Origin: Winogradskyella marina
GTDB lineage: Bacteria > Bacteroidota > Bacteroidia > Flavobacteriales > Flavobacteriaceae
Direction: 5' to 3'
Assembly: GCF_015645385.1 (NCBI RefSeq)
Contig: NZ_JADOET010000002.1
Coordinates: 310,001-374,000, forward strand
DNA: 64,000 bases
The notes under the pieces are model-generated. The model had not been told where the DNA came from, made no database searches, and saw only the letters and a list, made by a program, of their open reading frames with translations. This document shows, one piece after another, positions 43,278-53,223 of the stretch; positions within the stretch are counted from its first letter, which is position 1; each line of letters opens with the position of its first letter. The translations under genes were made by a program, and so were the position numbers.

Positions 43278-44192
43278 ATGCTTCAGGTAAAAAATGTCAC
43301 TTTTGGATATTCAAAAACTAAGGTTTTAAAAGCAATTGATTTTACAGTCAAAGCTGGAGAAAATCTTGCTATTATTGGAGAAAGTGGCTCTGGTAAAAGT
43401 ACTTTGTTGAAATTAATCTATGGCGAATACGATTTAAAACAAGGGCAAATATTTTGGAAGGACGAAGAAATCCTAGGACCCAAATACAACTTAGTGGTTG
43501 GGTATGATTTTATGAAATACGTCACCCAAGAATTCGATTTAATGCCAGTGACTACAGTTGAAGAAAACATAGGTAAACATTTGTCGCGTTTTTATCCTGA
43601 AGAAAAGCAAAGACGAACAGACGAACTCATTAAAGTTGTAGAACTTGAAGCCTTTGCTAACACTAAAGTAAAACTATTAAGCGGAGGCCAAAAACAACGC
43701 GTTGCCATTGCGAGAGCCTTAGCTAAACAACCCGAGATCTTATTATTAGACGAGCCTTTTAGTCACATAGATAATTTTAAAAAACAATCGCTTAGACGTA
43801 GTATTTTTAAATATTTAAAACAAAAAAACATCGCTTGTGTTGTCGCTACTCATGATAAAAATGATGTCCTTGGTTTTGCAGATCAGTTATTGGTTATTCA
43901 TAACGCTGAGATTATTGTAAAAGATACTCCTCAAAACATTTACAAAAACCCTAAACTACCTTTAATAGCCTCATTTTTTGGTGAGTTTAATGTGATTGAG
44001 CCTTATGGAATTGTGTATGCAAATCAGCTTAAAATCGTTGAGGAATCCGATTTAAAAGCACTTGTAAAAAGGTCTTATTTTAATGGTAGTTCTTGGTTGA
44101 TTGAAGCAGAATATAATTCGGAATCTATTTTTATAACTCATGACATCCGATTAGAAAAAGGAACCACAATTTACTTGTCAATTTCTTCATAG
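43278..44192 (+). CDS. ABC transporter ATP-binding protein
   Basis: 304 aa. Walker A GESGSGKST (about 36-44), Q-loop VTQEF, signature LSGGQKQRVA, Walker B ILLLDEP, switch His in ATHDKND. A C-terminal extension of about 80 residues (from FFGEFNVIEPYG) resembles the regulatory/OB-like part of importer ATPases. No permease gene is adjacent, so it is an orphan subunit. Its 3' end overlaps the convergent WYL gene by 22 bases. Confidence 0.88.
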   Translation: MLQVKNVTFGYSKTKVLKAIDFTVKAGENLAIIGESGSGKSTLLKLIYGEYDLKQGQIFWKDEEILGPKYNLVVGYDFMKYVTQEFDLMPVTTVEENIGKHLSRFYPEEKQRRTDELIKVVELEAFANTKVKLLSGGQKQRVAIARALAKQPEILLLDEPFSHIDNFKKQSLRRSIFKYLKQKNIACVVATHDKNDVLGFADQLLVIHNAEIIVKDTPQNIYKNPKLPLIASFFGEFNVIEPYGIVYANQLKIVEESDLKALVKRSYFNGSSWLIEAEYNSESIFITHDIRLEKGTTIYLSISS

Positions 44193-45181
44193 TTCTTTAC
44201 TGAAGTTTTCAATTTTTTAAGCATTCTATTTCTCAATTTTAATGGCTTCAACACTTCAATACTATCACCAAAACCTAAAATGAGACGTTCTAACTCAAAA
44301 TTAATTTGAACAAAAATATTGAAAATCATACCATCATTTGTTTTTTCAATCATACGTTGTGAGGAGTGAAATGGTTTTGTAATCACGTAAGGTGCATTTT
44401 TCAAGTCTATTTTAAACTGAATGCGTTCCGCTCGAGAATTTGAAACCGTTACTCCAATCACTTCTTTGTAATATTCGTCGCCATCAATTTGAAAATCATC
44501 ATAAAATTCGTTTTCAAGTTTTACTATTTCAGTAATTCTGTCTAAAGCCAAAGTGATATATTTTCCGTTTCGTGCACACAGTAGAAACCATCGATTATTA
44601 AATTCTTTAAGTAATTGCGGATGTACTTTCATTACACTGGCTTTTCGTGCTTTAAAAGATTTATAAGTGACTTCAATCACTTTTTTCGATTGTATGGCAT
44701 TGTATAAAACATCTATATATTCAAGACCTTTTAATTGCTCATTTTTATCTAAATGAATAATAGCACGTCTATCCTTTTGAGTTGAATTTACTGAATCTTC
44801 TAACCGCTGTAATACACCATCCATTTCTTGAAACAATGAGAAATCCTTGAATTGTTTCAGTAACTGAATGGCTTCATTCATAACTTTCACATCTTTATCA
44901 GTTACAGCAATTTTTACTATACTATAATCAGCATCCTCATACTTATAATACTTTCGGTCATAGACCACAATTGGCGCATTATAACCCAACTTATCACTTC
45001 GCATCATTTGTAAATCTAACTGAACCGTACGTTTGCTAACATTAATATCTTTACCCTCATATTCATACAGCGCATCAGAAACTGCTTCTATTAAATCGTT
45101 AAGTGTCCATTGTCTAAACTGATTTTGAAGACACTTATCAATGGTTTTATATCTAATTAATGCGTTTTTATTTACTGCCAT
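44171..45181 (-). CDS. WYL-domain transcriptional regulator
   Basis: 336 aa. An N-terminal winged HTH (about 1-75; SKRTVQLDLQMMRSDKLGYN) is followed by a helical linker and a WYL domain (about 140-260; KVIEVTYKSFKARKASVMKVHPQLLKEFNNRWFLLCARNG in part), then a WCX-like C-terminal region. WYL domains bind nucleic acid or small ligands and control many bacterial defence and repair systems. It is divergent from the RNA-repair island, and the TACGC-N9-RCGYA dyad at 45264-45282 lies in the shared upstream region, so it is the likely regulator of the island. Confidence 0.88.
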   Translation of the reverse strand: MAVNKNALIRYKTIDKCLQNQFRQWTLNDLIEAVSDALYEYEGKDINVSKRTVQLDLQMMRSDKLGYNAPIVVYDRKYYKYEDADYSIVKIAVTDKDVKVMNEAIQLLKQFKDFSLFQEMDGVLQRLEDSVNSTQKDRRAIIHLDKNEQLKGLEYIDVLYNAIQSKKVIEVTYKSFKARKASVMKVHPQLLKEFNNRWFLLCARNGKYITLALDRITEIVKLENEFYDDFQIDGDEYYKEVIGVTVSNSRAERIQFKIDLKNAPYVITKPFHSSQRMIEKTNDGMIFNIFVQINFELERLILGFGDSIEVLKPLKLRNRMLKKLKTSVKNYEEIDK

Positions 45182-46681: not shown

Positions 46682-46891
46682 CCAGAACAGACAAAAACAG
46701 GACGACTTATCGTCAGTTCTAAGATTACAGGTATCACTTATTTCGTTGAGCCTATTGATAATGGCAAACCAGATAAACTTTGGGGAGGCGTTGATTCGAC
46801 AACAAATAAATTGACTGGAGATTACGAAAACAAAGTCATAGGAGCTGTAAAAGAAAAAGACAGAAGAGATAAAGTTTATGAAAATCAATAA
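46682..46891 (+). pseudogene. fragment of a coding region without start codon
   Basis: An open frame of 69 codons bounded by stops, with no start codon before good protein-like sequence: GRLIVSSKITGITYFVEPID, then DKLWGGVDSTTNKLTGDYEN and a charged end KEKDRRDKVYENQ. The quality suggests the remains of a small gene that lost its start, or translation from a rare codon. Not recognised. Confidence 0.4.
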
Positions 46892-46910
46892 ATTTTGAAA
46901 TATTTTTAAC

Positions 46911-46929
46911 TACGCAAAAACATTGCGCA
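46911..46929. promoter_or_regulatory. operator-like dyad, site 2, before the tRNA-like array
   Basis: TACGCAAAAACATTGCGCA. TTTG of the -7 element follows 27 bases after the first half-site, exactly as at site 3. A further GCGTAG at 46933-46938 makes a second, wider dyad with CTACGC. Confidence 0.6.
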
Positions 46930-46938
46930 ATAGCGTAG

Positions 46939-46958
46939 AATATTTGCATTGTAATTAA
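46939..46958 (+). promoter_or_regulatory. -7 region of the tRNA-like array transcript
   Basis: AATATTTG followed by CAT and TGTAATTAA (46950-46958), nearly the same as the region before rtcB at 49784-49803. No -33 TTG, so an activator is plausible. Confidence 0.5.
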
Positions 46959-46995
46959 TAAGAAGTCTCTTTGGAATCAGACTTTAAAAGTAGTG

Positions 46996-47022
46996 CTCTG
47001 CCAGATAATGAGGCTGGCAGAG
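46996..47022 (+). ncRNA. leader hairpin before the tRNA-like gene
   Basis: CTCTGCCAG (46996-47004) and CTGGCAGAG (47014-47022), a perfect 9-bp stem with a 9-base loop, followed by TTTAATAAAA. A smaller stem AGTCT/AGACT (46964-46983) comes before it. Could be a processing signal or weak terminator. Confidence 0.55.
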
Positions 47023-47052
47023 TTTAATAAAACGTTCTTTAACATAAAAAAT

Positions 47053-47163
47053 AGTCCAGTAGCTCAGAAGGTAGAGCAACGAATACTTTTCGCCATCAGC
47101 ACAAAAAGGTTCCTATAAAGATTCATAATCCGTGTGTCGTGGGTTCGATTCCCACCTGGACTA
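47053..47163 (+). tRNA. tRNA-Met(CAU)-like gene interrupted in the anticodon arm
   Basis: Acceptor AGTCCAG (47053-47059) pairs fully with CTGGACT (47156-47162); D-arm GCTC/GAGC with GG; T-arm GTGGG-TTCGATT-CCCAC; U8, A14, G18, G19, A21, U33 and the TTC of the T-loop are all present. The 3' anticodon half TTCATAA-TCCGT gives anticodon CAU. Its 5' partner ACGAA (47079-47083) has one mismatch, and about 38 bases (47084-47121) separate it from the loop. The insert has its own hairpin (ACTTTT with AAAAGGT) and the GTTCCTATAA motif. Either a spliced or processed tRNA, or a tRNA mimic. CCA not encoded. Confidence 0.7.
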
Positions 47164-47406
47164 CAACAAAAATTACTGACACAGAAAGTTCCTATAACAT
47201 TCATTGGAGAAATTACTTTCCGTTAGTAAAAGACATAAAGCGTTCCTATAATCTGGTTCGATTCCAGAGCTCGAAAGAGCTTGAGGCTAATTTACGCTTC
47301 GTCTTAAAAGACAACTAGAGTTCCTATAATTTCCCCTCATCGCTCTTAGGAGCATGATTTATTACTCTTCGTCTTTAAACATAATAGGTAAAAGGTGTTC
47401 CTATTC
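47083..47406 (+). repeat. array of GTTCCTATAA units with tRNA-like fragments
   Basis: GTTCCTATAA occurs at 47109, 47188, 47242 and 47320, and GTTCCTATTC at 47397. Spacings are 79, 54, 78 and 77. Units are preceded by similar bases of the type ATTACT-TTCGTC-TTAAAAGACA. After the third copy a perfect T-arm-like hairpin TCTGG-TTCGATT-CCAGA appears, then GCTC-GAAA-GAGC; after the fourth GCTC-TTAG-GAGC. The array fills the space between the tRNA-like gene and the 612-aa gene. Probably a transcribed RNA array or degenerate copies of the interrupted tRNA. Confidence 0.65.
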
Positions 47407-47456
47407 ATTGACTGTTAATCAAAACCATACACCTCACTTATTTAAAAATTAATATT

Positions 47457-49295
47457 ATGAACACATTAAAATTATTTAGCGCTGTAGTAGCGAAAACATC
47501 AAACGAAAAGCCATACATCTCAGATGAAGGTTACATTATAGCACCAAATGCACTTTGGGCAAAAGACAGAATCATTGCTTTTTTAAAAGCTGAAAAACTA
47601 AATGGCAGTGATTTGAATAAAACCTTTCACAAATCATGGAGTAAAATCAAGAATAGCTCTACTTTCGAATTGTGTATAGAACAGATTAATCACTATATGT
47701 CAACCTATGGAAGTGATTTTCAGGATGATATTTATATTCCTGAAGAAGTTTTAAGCATTCCAAATGTAAAGCTTAACTATAAAGTTATTAATGCATATTC
47801 TGCTGATATAATGAAGCAAAAATGTTTGGCTTTATTAAAATCTGGCATGGCCTTAAAAGAAGATACCGTAGATGAATTAATCATTGTTTTAATAGATGAA
47901 TTAGGCTATACTTTTACTGGAAAAGAAAATATTAAGAACAAAGAAGCTATTGTAAAATTAGCCGAGTTTTATAATATTTATCCAGAGAATGCTGTTGAGT
48001 TTTTTAGATACATAATCTATAGAGCAACTGATACGACTTTGTTAATTAAAAATGATGCGTTAATTGAATTGATTAAGAACAGTTCATACAACCCAACGCA
48101 AGCATTTAACAATTTTGGACTAGAAAAACTTGCTGAAATCTTTAACCGATTTAAACCTCTGTTTTTGGCATTCAAAAGCAAGGCACCAAAAACGATTAAT
48201 AAAATTAGTAAGCTATCTAAAACATATCACAAGCCATTAGTTTCTAATCCGTTAAACGATGTTACAAATACATTACTAACTGATAAAGATGTACACTGGT
48301 TAGATAACGCAACACCTTTTGCTTTGTTCAAAGCTTTGTCTGCTTGTTACACAAGAAAACAAGGTCAAGATGCCTTTTTATACAGAATTAGAAACGGTAA
48401 ATCTTGGGTAAAAACCAATGATGTTTCCACTACAAGTAGTACAAATTTGCTCGCTAACCTTTTAAAGAGAAATAAAACTGGTAAGCACAAAAAAGCAGTT
48501 GTAGAAAATAATGTATTCAAGGAAAATTATCAGTTTTTACTTAACTATTTAAAGCAACGTTTTAATTTGTCTGGTAAGTGTTTGTTTTTTCCAGAGGATA
48601 TTACTTACGCTTTGCCAACATCAGAAAAATTGTATGTAGGTAACATTCCTACTGGTACACGTTTTTATGGTAAAAAGTTAGCGGTTGGTATTTATTGGGA
48701 AGATGCCTGGGGAGCGCGCGATTTGGATTTATCTGGTATAAATATTGCTGGTAAAATAGGTTGGAATACAACTTATAACCAACAACAAGGTAACCTAATG
48801 TATTCTGGTGATATTACCTCAGCACCAAATGGAGCTGTAGAATATTTATATGCCAATAAAGGATTGAATGTACCTGCTTTGATTCAAAATAATGTATATA
48901 ACGGAACTGCAGATTGCGGTTACAAAATTGTAATTGGTAAAGGAGCTAATATCTCTAAAGATTACATGATGAACCCAAACAAAGTTTTTGCTGACATTAA
49001 ATGTGAATCTGTACAGAAGCAAACTATTTTGGGCATGTTAATCCCTAAAAAAGATAAGCAATGTTTTGTATTATTAAATTTTGGCGCAGGTAATACTAGA
49101 GTTTCTGGTAATTCTGAAGTATCAACTTTAGCAACCAAAGCCTTGTACCAACAATGGAACGAACCTTTGTCATTTGATAATTTGGTGAGAACTTTAGGTG
49201 CTGAGATTACAGATTATAAAGACGAAGCAGATTTTGATTTCTCTTTGGAGAATTTAGAAAAAGATAGTTTTTTAAAACCTTTTATATCAAAGTAG
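47457..49295 (+). CDS. unrecognised 612-aa RNA-repair-island protein, possible TerD-like C-terminal region
   Basis: No signal peptide or membrane helix. Residues 1 to about 260 are helical, of a repeat-like character; the middle (about 270-400) is basic. The region about 415-480 has DLDLSGINIAGKIGW followed by YSGDITSAPNGAVEYLY, reminiscent of the DLDLS...SGD...E pattern of TerD-type stress domains; this is a weak, by-eye match. I looked for a TROVE/Ro60 plus vWFA arrangement, since Ro is a common partner of RtcB, and saw no DxSxS site. It sits directly after the tRNA-like array and before rtcB, so it likely acts on or binds that RNA. Confidence 0.7.
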   Translation: MNTLKLFSAVVAKTSNEKPYISDEGYIIAPNALWAKDRIIAFLKAEKLNGSDLNKTFHKSWSKIKNSSTFELCIEQINHYMSTYGSDFQDDIYIPEEVLSIPNVKLNYKVINAYSADIMKQKCLALLKSGMALKEDTVDELIIVLIDELGYTFTGKENIKNKEAIVKLAEFYNIYPENAVEFFRYIIYRATDTTLLIKNDALIELIKNSSYNPTQAFNNFGLEKLAEIFNRFKPLFLAFKSKAPKTINKISKLSKTYHKPLVSNPLNDVTNTLLTDKDVHWLDNATPFALFKALSACYTRKQGQDAFLYRIRNGKSWVKTNDVSTTSSTNLLANLLKRNKTGKHKKAVVENNVFKENYQFLLNYLKQRFNLSGKCLFFPEDITYALPTSEKLYVGNIPTGTRFYGKKLAVGIYWEDAWGARDLDLSGINIAGKIGWNTTYNQQQGNLMYSGDITSAPNGAVEYLYANKGLNVPALIQNNVYNGTADCGYKIVIGKGANISKDYMMNPNKVFADIKCESVQKQTILGMLIPKKDKQCFVLLNFGAGNTRVSGNSEVSTLATKALYQQWNEPLSFDNLVRTLGAEITDYKDEADFDFSLENLEKDSFLKPFISK

Positions 49296-49306: not shown

Positions 49307-49403
49307 GGGCGTTACCCTCTTTCGCAAAAGAACTTCAGAGGGTCGCGCTTTCCACTATATCTTTTGCAAAAAGGCAAAAGGATGCCGTTTCTATCGCTAA
49401 CGC
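49307..49403. repeat. structured repeat-like element with two internal hairpins
   Basis: Ends GCGTTA (49310-49315) and TAACGC (49398-49403) are complementary. Inside are hairpins ACCCTC/GAGGGT (49315-49343) and CTTTTGC/GCAAAAG (49361-49380). The look matches dispersed cruciform elements I associate with Bacteroidetes genomes. Only one copy in this window. Confidence 0.5.
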
Positions 49404-49632
49404 AGAGCAAGGAACATTTAAATACAAGTAAGAGAACAAGAACACAAGGATTGAAAACAAAATAAGTAAAATCTCAAATCCTAAATCAATTCATAGAATT
49501 GAACGTCAAGGCGCAGAATAGATGAAGAAAAGCTTCGAAATCAGGAGAACGAAGTTCGACGCGAAGTTTTCAAATCGGTTTCAGTTTGAAAAACTGAAAA
49601 TTCCTTGGATTGACCGTGATTTTTTGGCTTGG
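49404..49632. other. non-coding stretch between the 612-aa gene and rtcB
   Basis: No convincing open frame or terminator. It contains small dyads such as TCAGTTT near AAACTGA (49600 area) and merges into repeat elements from 49633. Probably a long untranslated region or decayed DNA. Confidence 0.4.
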
Positions 49633-49755: not shown

Positions 49756-49774
49756 TACGCAAAAACAACGCGTA
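49756..49774. promoter_or_regulatory. operator-like dyad, site 3, before rtcB
   Basis: TACGCAAAAACAACGCGTA, half-sites TACGC and GCGTA with 9 bases between: the most symmetrical of the three sites. Confidence 0.65.
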
Positions 49775-49783
49775 ACAGACTAT

Positions 49784-49803
49784 AATATTTGTAGTGTAAT
49801 TAA
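49784..49803 (+). promoter_or_regulatory. -7 region of the rtcB promoter
   Basis: AATATTTG (49784-49791) followed by TAG and TGTAATTAA (49795-49803), at the same distance from the dyad as in the tRNA-array promoter. Confidence 0.55.
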
Positions 49804-49863: not shown

Positions 49864-51315
<1,452 letters not shown>

Positions 51316-51410: not shown

Positions 51411-51427
51411 AATTATATACTTACAAA

Positions 51428-52174
51428 ATGAAAACTAAAATACTTGAAAAACTCTCTCAAATAGAGAAAGATAAGAACATAGAAATACTATTTGCAGTAG
51501 AATCTGGAAGTAGAGCCTGGGGATTTGAATCACCAGATTCAGATTATGATATACGTTTTGTTTATAAGCATAAAAAAGAATGGTATCTCAACCTTTGGGA
51601 ACAAAAAGATACTATAGAATTTATGAACGAAGATGATTTAGATGGTTCTGGTTGGGAATTTCGTAAAGCCTTAAAGCTGTTAGCAAAATCTAACGCTTCT
51701 TTTTTAGGTTGGCTATTTTCGCCTATTGTTTATCGTGCTGATCAAACGTTTTTAAATGAAATAAGAATTTTAGCACAGAACAATTTTAATCCTGTGTCTG
51801 GGTTTTATCACTATCATAGTATGAGCAAAGGTTTTGAAGAAACACTTGATACTGAAGAAATGACTTTAAAGAGTTTTTTCTATGCTATAAGAACCGCTTT
51901 GTGTGCGAATTGGGTTTATAAAAAAGGAACGATTCCACCAGTATTGTTTACTGACTTATATCCAATAATCGATGCGGAATTTCATTCAATCTTAAACGAT
52001 TTAATAGTTTTAAAAAGTCTGGAAATTGAAAAAAGTTCTAAACCAGTTGATGCTATTTTAATAAATTTAGTACGAGTTATTATTGCAGAAAACAATAGCG
52101 TTAAAAATGACTTGAAAAACAAGAATGCTAATCCTGAAGAGTTTAATGAATTCTTCTTAAAAGAAATAAAATGA
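51428..52174 (+). CDS. RlaP-type nucleotidyltransferase 1 (RNA repair)
   Basis: 248-aa DNA polymerase beta superfamily member. GSRAWGF at 27-33 and D39-x-D41 (SDYD) are the nucleotide and metal sites; the W-x-F and FLGWLFSP segments match the RlaP family, found next to RNA ligases and predicted to add or remove nucleotides at RNA ends. The ATG at 51428 is chosen; the TTG at 51395 lies inside the terminator. Overlaps the next gene by 4 bases. Confidence 0.85.
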   Translation: MKTKILEKLSQIEKDKNIEILFAVESGSRAWGFESPDSDYDIRFVYKHKKEWYLNLWEQKDTIEFMNEDDLDGSGWEFRKALKLLAKSNASFLGWLFSPIVYRADQTFLNEIRILAQNNFNPVSGFYHYHSMSKGFEETLDTEEMTLKSFFYAIRTALCANWVYKKGTIPPVLFTDLYPIIDAEFHSILNDLIVLKSLEIEKSSKPVDAILINLVRVIIAENNSVKNDLKNKNANPEEFNEFFLKEIK

Positions 52175-53223
52175 CAATTGAAGATTTAAAAAAATCAGGA
52201 TCAATAATTTTTGAAAGTATTAGTGGCAGTAGGGCTTATGGCTTAGATACTGCCACTTCTGATACCGATATCAGAGGCGTGTTTATTTTACCTAAAGAAG
52301 AATTCTATTCTTTAAATTATGTTGGGCAAATTAATAACGAAACCAATGATATCGCTTATTATGAGTTAAACAAATTTGTGGAATTGCTTTTAAAAAATAA
52401 TCCTAATATAATGGAGCTTTTAAATGTTCCTGAAGAATGTGTGCTTTATAAACATCCCATTTTTGATTCCATTAAAAAAGAAGATTTTTTATCAAAACTT
52501 TGCAAAAATACATTTGCTAATTATGCTTTTACACAGATAAAAAAGGCAAGAGGCTTAAATAAGAAAATCGTAAATCCTGTGGATAAAGAAAGAAAGTCCG
52601 TTGAAGATTTTTGTTATGTTAGAGATGAAAAACAATCCGTTCCTTTTAAGGGTTTTATTACAGATAAGAGCCTAATGCCTCAACATTTTGGACTGGTTAA
52701 ATTGTCTCATATGAAAGATTGTTATAATCTATTTTATAATGAAAACTTAAATTATAATGGAATTTCTAGACCGAATGCCAATGAAGTTTGCTTAAGTTTG
52801 GTACCGAAACCTGAGAAGCCAGTTGCAGTTTTATATTTTAATGTTGATGGCTATTCAACCTATTGCAAAAAATATGCAGAATATTGGAATTGGGTCGAGA
52901 AAAGAAATGAAGAGCGTTATAAAAGTAATATTTCGCACAGTAAAAATTACGATGCAAAAAACATGATGCATACGTTTCGTTTGTTACATATGGCTAAAGA
53001 AATTGGTTTAACCAATGCGATAAATGTTAGAAGACTAGATAGAGATTTTCTGCTATCGATAAAAAATGCCGAATTTGAATACGATGATTTAGTCCATAAA
53101 GCTGAAAAAATGAAATCGGAACTTGATGAGATCTACACTAATTCAAACTTAATTGACCGACCAAATACTGAAAAGGTTAATCAATTGCTTTATAACACTA
53201 GAAATCAATTTTATAATCTATAA
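52171..53223 (+). CDS. RlaP-type nucleotidyltransferase 2 (RNA repair)
   Basis: 350-aa second member of the same family with GSRAYG at 19-24 and D31-T-D33. It is about 100 residues longer than its neighbour, with a C-terminal helical region (AKNMMHTFRLLHMAKEIG) that may bind RNA. Translationally coupled to copy 1 (ATGA). The pair with RtcB makes a set for processing and sealing damaged or cut RNA. Confidence 0.85.
   Translation: MTIEDLKKSGSIIFESISGSRAYGLDTATSDTDIRGVFILPKEEFYSLNYVGQINNETNDIAYYELNKFVELLLKNNPNIMELLNVPEECVLYKHPIFDSIKKEDFLSKLCKNTFANYAFTQIKKARGLNKKIVNPVDKERKSVEDFCYVRDEKQSVPFKGFITDKSLMPQHFGLVKLSHMKDCYNLFYNENLNYNGISRPNANEVCLSLVPKPEKPVAVLYFNVDGYSTYCKKYAEYWNWVEKRNEERYKSNISHSKNYDAKNMMHTFRLLHMAKEIGLTNAINVRRLDRDFLLSIKNAEFEYDDLVHKAEKMKSELDEIYTNSNLIDRPNTEKVNQLLYNTRNQFYNL

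Follow-up and report, generated by a model that had tools for sequence, protein, structure and literature searches.

A tRNA-shaped RNA and companion hairpins upstream of an uncharacterised protein gene in Winogradskyella marina: candidate baits for tRNA-cutting nucleases

What purpose could be served by a tRNA gene whose anticodon arm is split by a hairpin? Such a gene lies at 47053-47163 of a 64,000-nucleotide (nt) stretch of the Winogradskyella marina genome (contig NZ_JADOET010000002.1, positions 310,001 to 374,000; hereafter the window), in front of a gene for an uncharacterised protein of 612 amino acids, here called P612. The original prediction, made from the letters of the window, described a tRNA-Met-like gene with an insert and offered three possibilities: a spliced tRNA, a decoy for anticodon nucleases, or a sensor RNA resembling the tRNA-shaped domain of bacterial Y RNAs. 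We find five copies of a hairpin motif preceding P612, of which this gene is one. The RNA may be a P612-bound bait that occupies tRNA-cutting nucleases, and no tRNA precursor, a reading to which we give slightly less than an even chance.

A tRNA interrupted by a hairpin

The Rfam tRNA model (RF00005) covers 47053-47163 from end to end with 49.4 bits against a gathering score of 29, bearing out the prediction of a tRNA-Met-like gene; plain ARAGORN made no call there. The insert interrupts the 5′ strand of the anticodon stem, and taking out 38 nt, 47082-47119, leaves a perfect Met anticodon arm, ACGGA-TTCATAA-TCCGT. The predicted length of the insert, 38 nt, was correct, but the predicted boundaries, 47084-47121, leave an A.C mismatch. 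In the encoded RNA this arm (5 base pairs, 7-nt loop) is never unbroken: an insert with its own hairpin, as had been proposed, splits it in 39/39 aligned relatives, and covariation supports the kept tRNA body. The 26 pairs of the alignment form in 97.5% of cells, 14 of them with double changes, and the letters of the insert hairpin are among the best conserved positions, many of them invariant in 39/39. The covariation score was 0.332 compared to 0.135 in shuffled alignments, and cells with double changes numbered 97 compared to 22. Because the pairs covary in 39 relatives and none of 500 shuffles reached 97, the tRNA body with its anticodon-arm hairpin is real, beyond chance. Decay of the tRNA arms in relatives, which had been named as contrary evidence, has affected the anticodon arm and spared the acceptor, D and T arms. 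We predict that 47053-47163 is transcribed.

In the source genome (3.98 Mb, 78 contigs, listed completeness 100%), scoring of 150 of 396 candidates gave 36 tRNA matches, the largest clusters among which comprise 5-6 tRNAs. Three ordinary CAU tRNAs (L004, L017 and L018) are found elsewhere among the scored matches, and 47053-47163 is therefore a fourth, extra CAU tRNA. Accordingly, the idea that it replaces an essential tRNA was dropped.

The original prediction recognised the insert but overlooked four further copies of the same motif downstream. The window has five copies, four free-standing (units A to D) and one inside the tRNA (Table 1). The terminal letters of the insert, GTTCCTAT, are found again at 47188, 47242, 47320 and 47397, each time within a hairpin. 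The motif consists of an outer stem, an internal loop with three A-rich bases opposite one C, an inner stem NNNNG/CNNNN, and a loop that starts with UUCCUAU and ends with UA. In the tRNA copy the motif faces inward, such that its inner stem forms the outer stem of the insert and the tRNA body replaces the loop. The P612 start codon follows 14 nt after the end of unit D.

A strict motif finder recovered three of the four free units (A, B and D) and no further unit elsewhere in the 64 kb, on either strand, nor in the reversed sequence; unit C and the tRNA copy, which it missed, were taken from folding and a looser search. Folded singly, units A, C and D adopt the motif, and the best fold of unit B retains the outer stem but not the inner one. 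The word GTTCCTATAA alone is unspecific, with 18 sites in the genome, and a 15-letter strand pattern has 23 sites, 4 of them at the locus. When 46860-47460 was compared with Rfam, the tRNA alone among 12 matches with E values up to 10 reached its gathering score, and the idea of a known self-cleaving ribozyme or other Rfam RNA was dropped for the array. Upstream of the array lies a gene remnant (46700-46890), one frame of which reads KPDKLWGGVDSTTNKLTGDYE by eye; it resembles one upstream of the array at locus L058.

One hairpin motif, many tRNA pieces

For comparison with other Bacteroidota we used the best 80 of 129 loci from a scan of genome contigs with an alignment of 18 P612 homologues, 81 loci with the window. 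In the 650 nt upstream of P612, 81/81 loci have one or more strict units and 79/81 have two or more; the reversed control gave one unit in total. From the end of the last strict hairpin core to the P612 start, the distance is 15-23 nt in at least 72 of the 81, with a median of 21. Since the motif finder demands pairing, pairing was checked separately on strands picked by letters alone: 15 of 34 pairs were fully complementary, compared to 5.8 among shuffled pairs (maximum 11 in 1,000 shuffles). A script detected a linear tRNA body with the hairpin replacing the anticodon arm at 61 of 81 distinct loci (62 of 82 before the duplicate L045, identical to L050, was removed). Outside this count, such bodies were recognised by eye at L071, L115 and L122, and also at L046; none was found in the other 17 Bacteroidota loci. 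The word UUGGAU recurs in several short unit loops that carry no tRNA piece (L173, L197, L198 and Chryseobacterium loci).

P612 and the long RNA also occur together in wider samples. Among 295 genomes of the class, a long tRNA-like RNA stands out in three, the window's included, and the same three have full P612. The covariance model used (R1) also matches ordinary tRNAs, with up to 66.1 bits and at least one match in all 295 genomes, and was read by length and by the score gap among the matches listed, where the long RNAs have 72.7-111.8 bits and 109-117 nt. One further genome, G589, with a weak partial P612 hit (27%, E 9e-4) that we set aside, has no long RNA among the matches listed. In a sample of the family P612 occurs in 3 of 299 genomes, and the two besides the window's both have the tRNA-shaped RNA.

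The association extends to viruses. Searches with tblastn found P612 homologues in the phages S-CRM01 (34%), S-CBWM1 (30%) and Phass-1 (29%). In the cyanophages S-CRM01 and S-CBWM1 the P612 genes sit among 26 and 34 annotated tRNAs, respectively, in the stretches fetched, and hairpin units lie directly before the gene; in Phass-1 they lie after it. Directly after the S-CBWM1 gene are two annotated pseudo-tRNAs (L174, 10180-10356). Overlapping IMG/VR scans gave 2, 42 and 51 loci, from which we counted 55 distinct loci that had 500 nt or more upstream, excluding 6 short ones and 7 duplicates. Within 1 kb upstream of P612, at least one unit was found in 48 of the 55 and at least two in 39, for a total of 115 units compared to none in the reversed and none in the reverse-complemented sequences; downstream of viral P612 genes there were 10 more units in 175 kb. 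Even homologues at 26% identity (L210 and L214) still had a unit. Among strands picked by letters, 28 of 48 distinct viral pairs were fully complementary, compared to 4.1 for shuffled pairs (maximum 10 in 1,000 shuffles). tRNAs lie near P612 in 21 of 47 viral loci.

The loops of these units carry different parts of a tRNA. In S-CRM01 the loop comprises, in order, the V loop, T arm, acceptor 3′ strand, a TTCG cap, the acceptor 5′ strand, UA and the D arm; this is a tRNA whose permutation point is the anticodon and whose acceptor end is capped. Two more permuted tRNAs with a capped acceptor were found at L194. These permuted forms could not be charged or used in translation, because the acceptor end is closed by a loop. 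S-CRM01 also has a T-arm/acceptor minihelix, and unit B of the window is likewise a minihelix. Among 225 distinct unit loops, 45 contain an anticodon-type hairpin loop compared to a mean of 3.3 and a maximum of 9 after shuffling, although 11 of the 45 are T loops. The Lys-UUU loop CUUUUAA accounts for 22 of the 45, on differing stems in Chryseobacterium, L052, L193, S-CRM01 and Phass-1. T arms occur in 22 of the 225, compared to 0.2 when shuffled; three of these are read-throughs from tRNA-like 3′ halves. The tRNA part occurs in two circular permutations on one hairpin motif. The constant factor, judged by sequence, is the hairpin motif beside one protein, and the variable factor is which tRNA part it carries.

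The protein itself is uncharacterised. P612 had no Pfam match, no TerD family was among the Pfam hits of 18 members at E values up to 1, and comparison with the PADLOC models gave no match to a known anti-phage defence protein. Its C-terminal part is predicted to adopt a TerD fold, and the N-terminal helical repeat gave weak matches only, to assorted helical-repeat chains. P612 had been guessed to be a TROVE protein from its position beside RtcB. This idea was dropped for lack of profile similarity: alignment of 85 P612 sequences with the proteins of 10 Bacteroidota TROVE loci in hhalign gave a probability of 0.1%. The source genome has no TROVE match, and no Ro60 chain is among the matches listed (VIA) for P612, which excludes nothing. 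The family had 2,089 hits among 7,995 candidates scored. Among bacterial, phage and metagenome hits is one homologue (32%) from the eukaryote set EukProt, P0331, which may be contamination.

The array was said to lie next to RtcB; in fact the RtcB gene starts 2.7 kb downstream, with the P612 gene between (Table 1). In the flanks fetched for 80 loci, RtcB was hit at 73 (four at 26-27% identity), a WYL-domain protein at 65, and the RNA-repair nucleotidyltransferases RlaP1 and RlaP2 at 60 and 44. A dyad of the form TRCGCA...GCGYR has exactly two sites in the window, and both (46911-46958 and 49756-49803) carry AATATTTG and TGTAATTAA after the inverted repeat. With a pattern derived from the window and relatives before counting, the dyad was hit 69 times in 484 kb around P612 compared to 16 times in 841 kb of other fetched flanks; at least one lies in 60 of 81 loci, some of them before RlaP1. 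The WYL protein might bind this dyad, we infer. Arrays of 7-18 tRNAs for many amino acids lie within 10 kb of P612 at 8 of 80 loci (L048, L049, L051, L058, L084, L094, L114 and L117). Plasmid carriage was rejected, as a plasmid collection gave no match.

Table 1 Features of the locus, in positions of the window
Feature	Position	Strand	Description and support
WYL-domain regulator	44171..45181	-	PF13280; homologues near the array in most relatives
Dyad TACGCAAAAACATTGCGCA	46911..46929	+	Operator-like; before the RNA array; part of repeat D1
tRNA-shaped RNA gene	47053..47163	+	Acceptor, D and T arms intact; Met CAU loop remains on the 3′ side; Rfam RF00005, covariation in 39 relatives
Hairpin motif in anticodon arm	47085..47119	+	Inward-facing form; ends in single-stranded TCCTATAAA
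Unit A	47174..47228	+	Free-standing hairpin, CTGAC-ACA-GAAAG-TTCCTATAA...TTA-CTTTC-C-GTTAG; fold z -2.5; strict finder
Unit B	47230..47305	+	Loop with T arm CTGG-TTCGATT-CCAG and capped acceptor-like stem GCTC-GAAA-GAGC, a permuted mini-tRNA; strict finder, T-arm list
Unit C	47307..47376	+	Same plan, with its own inner hairpin; one T.T mismatch in inner stem; fold z -2.9
Unit D	47383..47442	+	Loop mimics an Asn-GUU anticodon stem-loop, TTGA-CTGTTAA-TCAA; fold z -1.7; strict finder
P612	47457..49295	+	Uncharacterised 612-aa protein; N-terminal helical repeat, C-terminal predicted TerD fold
Flavo-1 RNA	49337-49413	-	Between P612 and rtcB; Rfam RF01705, 50.5 bits
Dyad, second copy	49756..49774	+	Before rtcB
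RtcB RNA ligase	49903..51315	+	PF01139, E 7e-38
RlaP-type RNA-repair nucleotidyltransferase 1	51425..52174	+	PF10127, E 2e-67
RlaP-type nucleotidyltransferase 2	52171..53223	+	PF10127, E 5e-24

Weighing the possible functions

How might these RNAs serve a bacterium or a phage? We suggest, as a tentative proposal somewhat below an even chance, that they form a new class of RNA-protein particle, common to Bacteroidota and phages rich in tRNAs: a helical-repeat/TerD protein with its hairpin array would show tRNA pieces and disarm tRNA-cutting toxins, beside RtcB repair and reserve tRNA arrays. The pieces displayed would be whole bodies in either permutation, T-arm/acceptor minihelices, and Lys-UUU and other anticodon loops. 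P612 would bind the hairpin motif, and the pieces would be presented to nucleases whose recognition site is the anticodon arm, the acceptor/T arm or the whole elbow. RtcB and RlaP, which may be under the same control, would meanwhile mend damaged real tRNAs. The last unit, about 20 nt before the P612 start codon, could let P612 limit its own synthesis, self-regulation being suggested by the median distance of 21 nt. Baits for different tRNA-attacking enzymes appear to be the best fit to the display of anticodon loops, T-arm/acceptor minihelices and whole elbows. Of the functions first proposed, the decoy for anticodon nucleases fits the evidence, as does the Y RNA-like tRNA-shaped RNA.

Several observations weigh against the bait reading. 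Pair types across the 39 relatives do not outnumber those in shuffles (31 compared to 30.6), and in 20 relatives the longer stem of the insert lacks its innermost pair. Most Chryseobacterium tRNA-shaped copies have no anticodon loop, and that member therefore cannot act as bait for a nuclease that cuts this loop. Related Chryseobacterium loci supply most of the Lys loops, so that the 225 loops are not independent, and many units have short loops without a tRNA-like piece. The dyad, as patterned, is absent from 21 of 81 loci, and 7 of 55 viral loci have no upstream unit. In the flanks fetched for 47 viral loci, 26 have no tRNA and one (L202) has an RtcB hit; the repair link is therefore not universal. 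Finally, the cited passages on Salmonella YrlA report that this RNA is not cut by the anticodon nuclease, although the authors still propose competition (PMC7790460).

The main rival is a scaffold of the Ro60/Y RNA kind, in which the tRNA-shaped part recruits RtcB, RlaP or an exonuclease and broken tRNAs are repaired or cleared on the P612 particle. We regard this as unlikely, though a serious contender. It would follow the same logic as rsr-yrlBA-rtcBA, where, in the passages cited, an RNA with a tRNA-like domain is encoded beside rtcB (PMC7790460), and it is consistent with the RtcB and RlaP hits in most Bacteroidota loci and with the dyad common to the array and rtcB. By contrast, the near-zero hhalign probability against TROVE and the single viral RtcB hit argue against it, and anticodon-loop mimics would be superfluous on a scaffold.

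Alternatively, the array could be a sensor: cutting of a bait loop, or release of P612, would signal attack on tRNAs and turn on P612 and the repair genes, with the last unit in the P612 leader as the switch. The position of the last strict core, the WYL gene in 65/80 loci and the dyads before array and rtcB are all in keeping with such a switch. However, one unit would suffice, yet up to six are present, and permuted tRNAs and T-arm minihelices have no normal cut site for an anticodon nuclease. We consider a sensor distinctly improbable.

Far less probable still is the spliced tRNA of the original prediction, here a tRNA-Met whose protein-spliced intron would be cut out by an unnamed endonuclease, with RtcB sealing the halves. 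Its attraction is the perfect arm left by removal of 47082-47119, and removal at this one common junction gives a five-pair anticodon arm (G-U allowed) in 7 of the 39 relatives, six of them Met-type, including the window's, and the other one of two from L094. In another 11 relatives removal yields 4-5 pairs, for the most part at other junctions, and in 21 it yields none. The remaining 32 thus have no five-pair arm at the common junction, the anticodon arm is less conserved than the insert, three ordinary CAU tRNAs are present in the genome, and the permuted phage versions, their acceptor stems being capped, could not serve as tRNAs. For the family the intron was accordingly rejected. A tRNA pseudogene disrupted by a small mobile repeat, as the letters shared by the insert and the downstream repeats might suggest, is scarcely credible given that tRNA body and insert are both kept across genera and strict units occur nowhere else in the window.

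If the bait reading is correct, the locus would represent a second, unrelated answer to the problem solved by Ro60 and Y RNA. An unnamed protein family would be tied to a motif that has no Rfam family and on which tRNA pieces are mounted in both permutations, and split-looking tRNAs in genomes would have a possible use. It points to a way in which bacteria and phages might neutralise the tRNA-cutting toxins of defence systems, and a single protein with a single 60-nt RNA is enough for a direct test.

Comparison with known systems

Among the open-access papers listed, judged from titles, the starts of abstracts and passages, we found no treatment of the P612-RNA pair; bioRxiv and most subscription journals were outside this scope. 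The nearest parallel is the Ro60/Y RNA scaffold (background in passages of PMC7790460 and PMC7824862). In rsr-yrlBA-rtcBA, YrlA RNA with its tRNA-like domain sits with rtcB, and a role as competitive inhibitor has been proposed in the part cited (PMC7790460). In both systems, so far as these passages go, a noncoding RNA with a tRNA-like domain is encoded with an RNA-binding protein (here, putatively, P612) and RtcB, the tRNA-shaped RNA of the P612 array lying near rtcB. P612, however, is not a TROVE protein by profile comparison, its array consists of several units whose tRNA pieces differ and come in two permutations, no Rfam family except tRNA reaches the gathering score over it, and 10 Bacteroidota TROVE loci (32.7 kb) have no motif unit. 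Like the archaeal and eukaryotic tRNA introns joined by RtcB, the insert lies in the anticodon arm, and its removal gives a five-pair arm in 7/39 relatives; unlike them, the array family has no family-wide splice position, mostly lacks an anticodon loop and includes permuted forms with capped acceptors.

P612 also differs from TerD proteins: it has no TerD Pfam match, has an N-terminal helical repeat and is tied to an RNA motif. The trn operon of Anabaena is described, in the passages cited, as a silent reserve tRNA array that TrcR represses together with rtcB and that is released in translational stress (PMC10272220). Large tRNA arrays likewise lie beside P612 at 8/80 loci. TrcR, by contrast, is a ribbon-helix-helix repressor, according to the same excerpts, whereas the P612 locus has a WYL gene nearby, and those passages describe no tRNA-shaped hairpin RNAs for the operon (PMC10272220). 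Finally, the cited parts of two studies report that PrrC cuts tRNA-Lys(ttt) (PMC10264068) and that AriB of PARIS cuts tRNA-Lys (PMC11455837). The phage tRNAs that resist anticodon nucleases resemble the P612 loci in the phage tRNA arrays and in tRNA-Lys as the battleground. Those tRNAs function in translation, whereas P612 units carry pieces of tRNAs or capped, permuted bodies.
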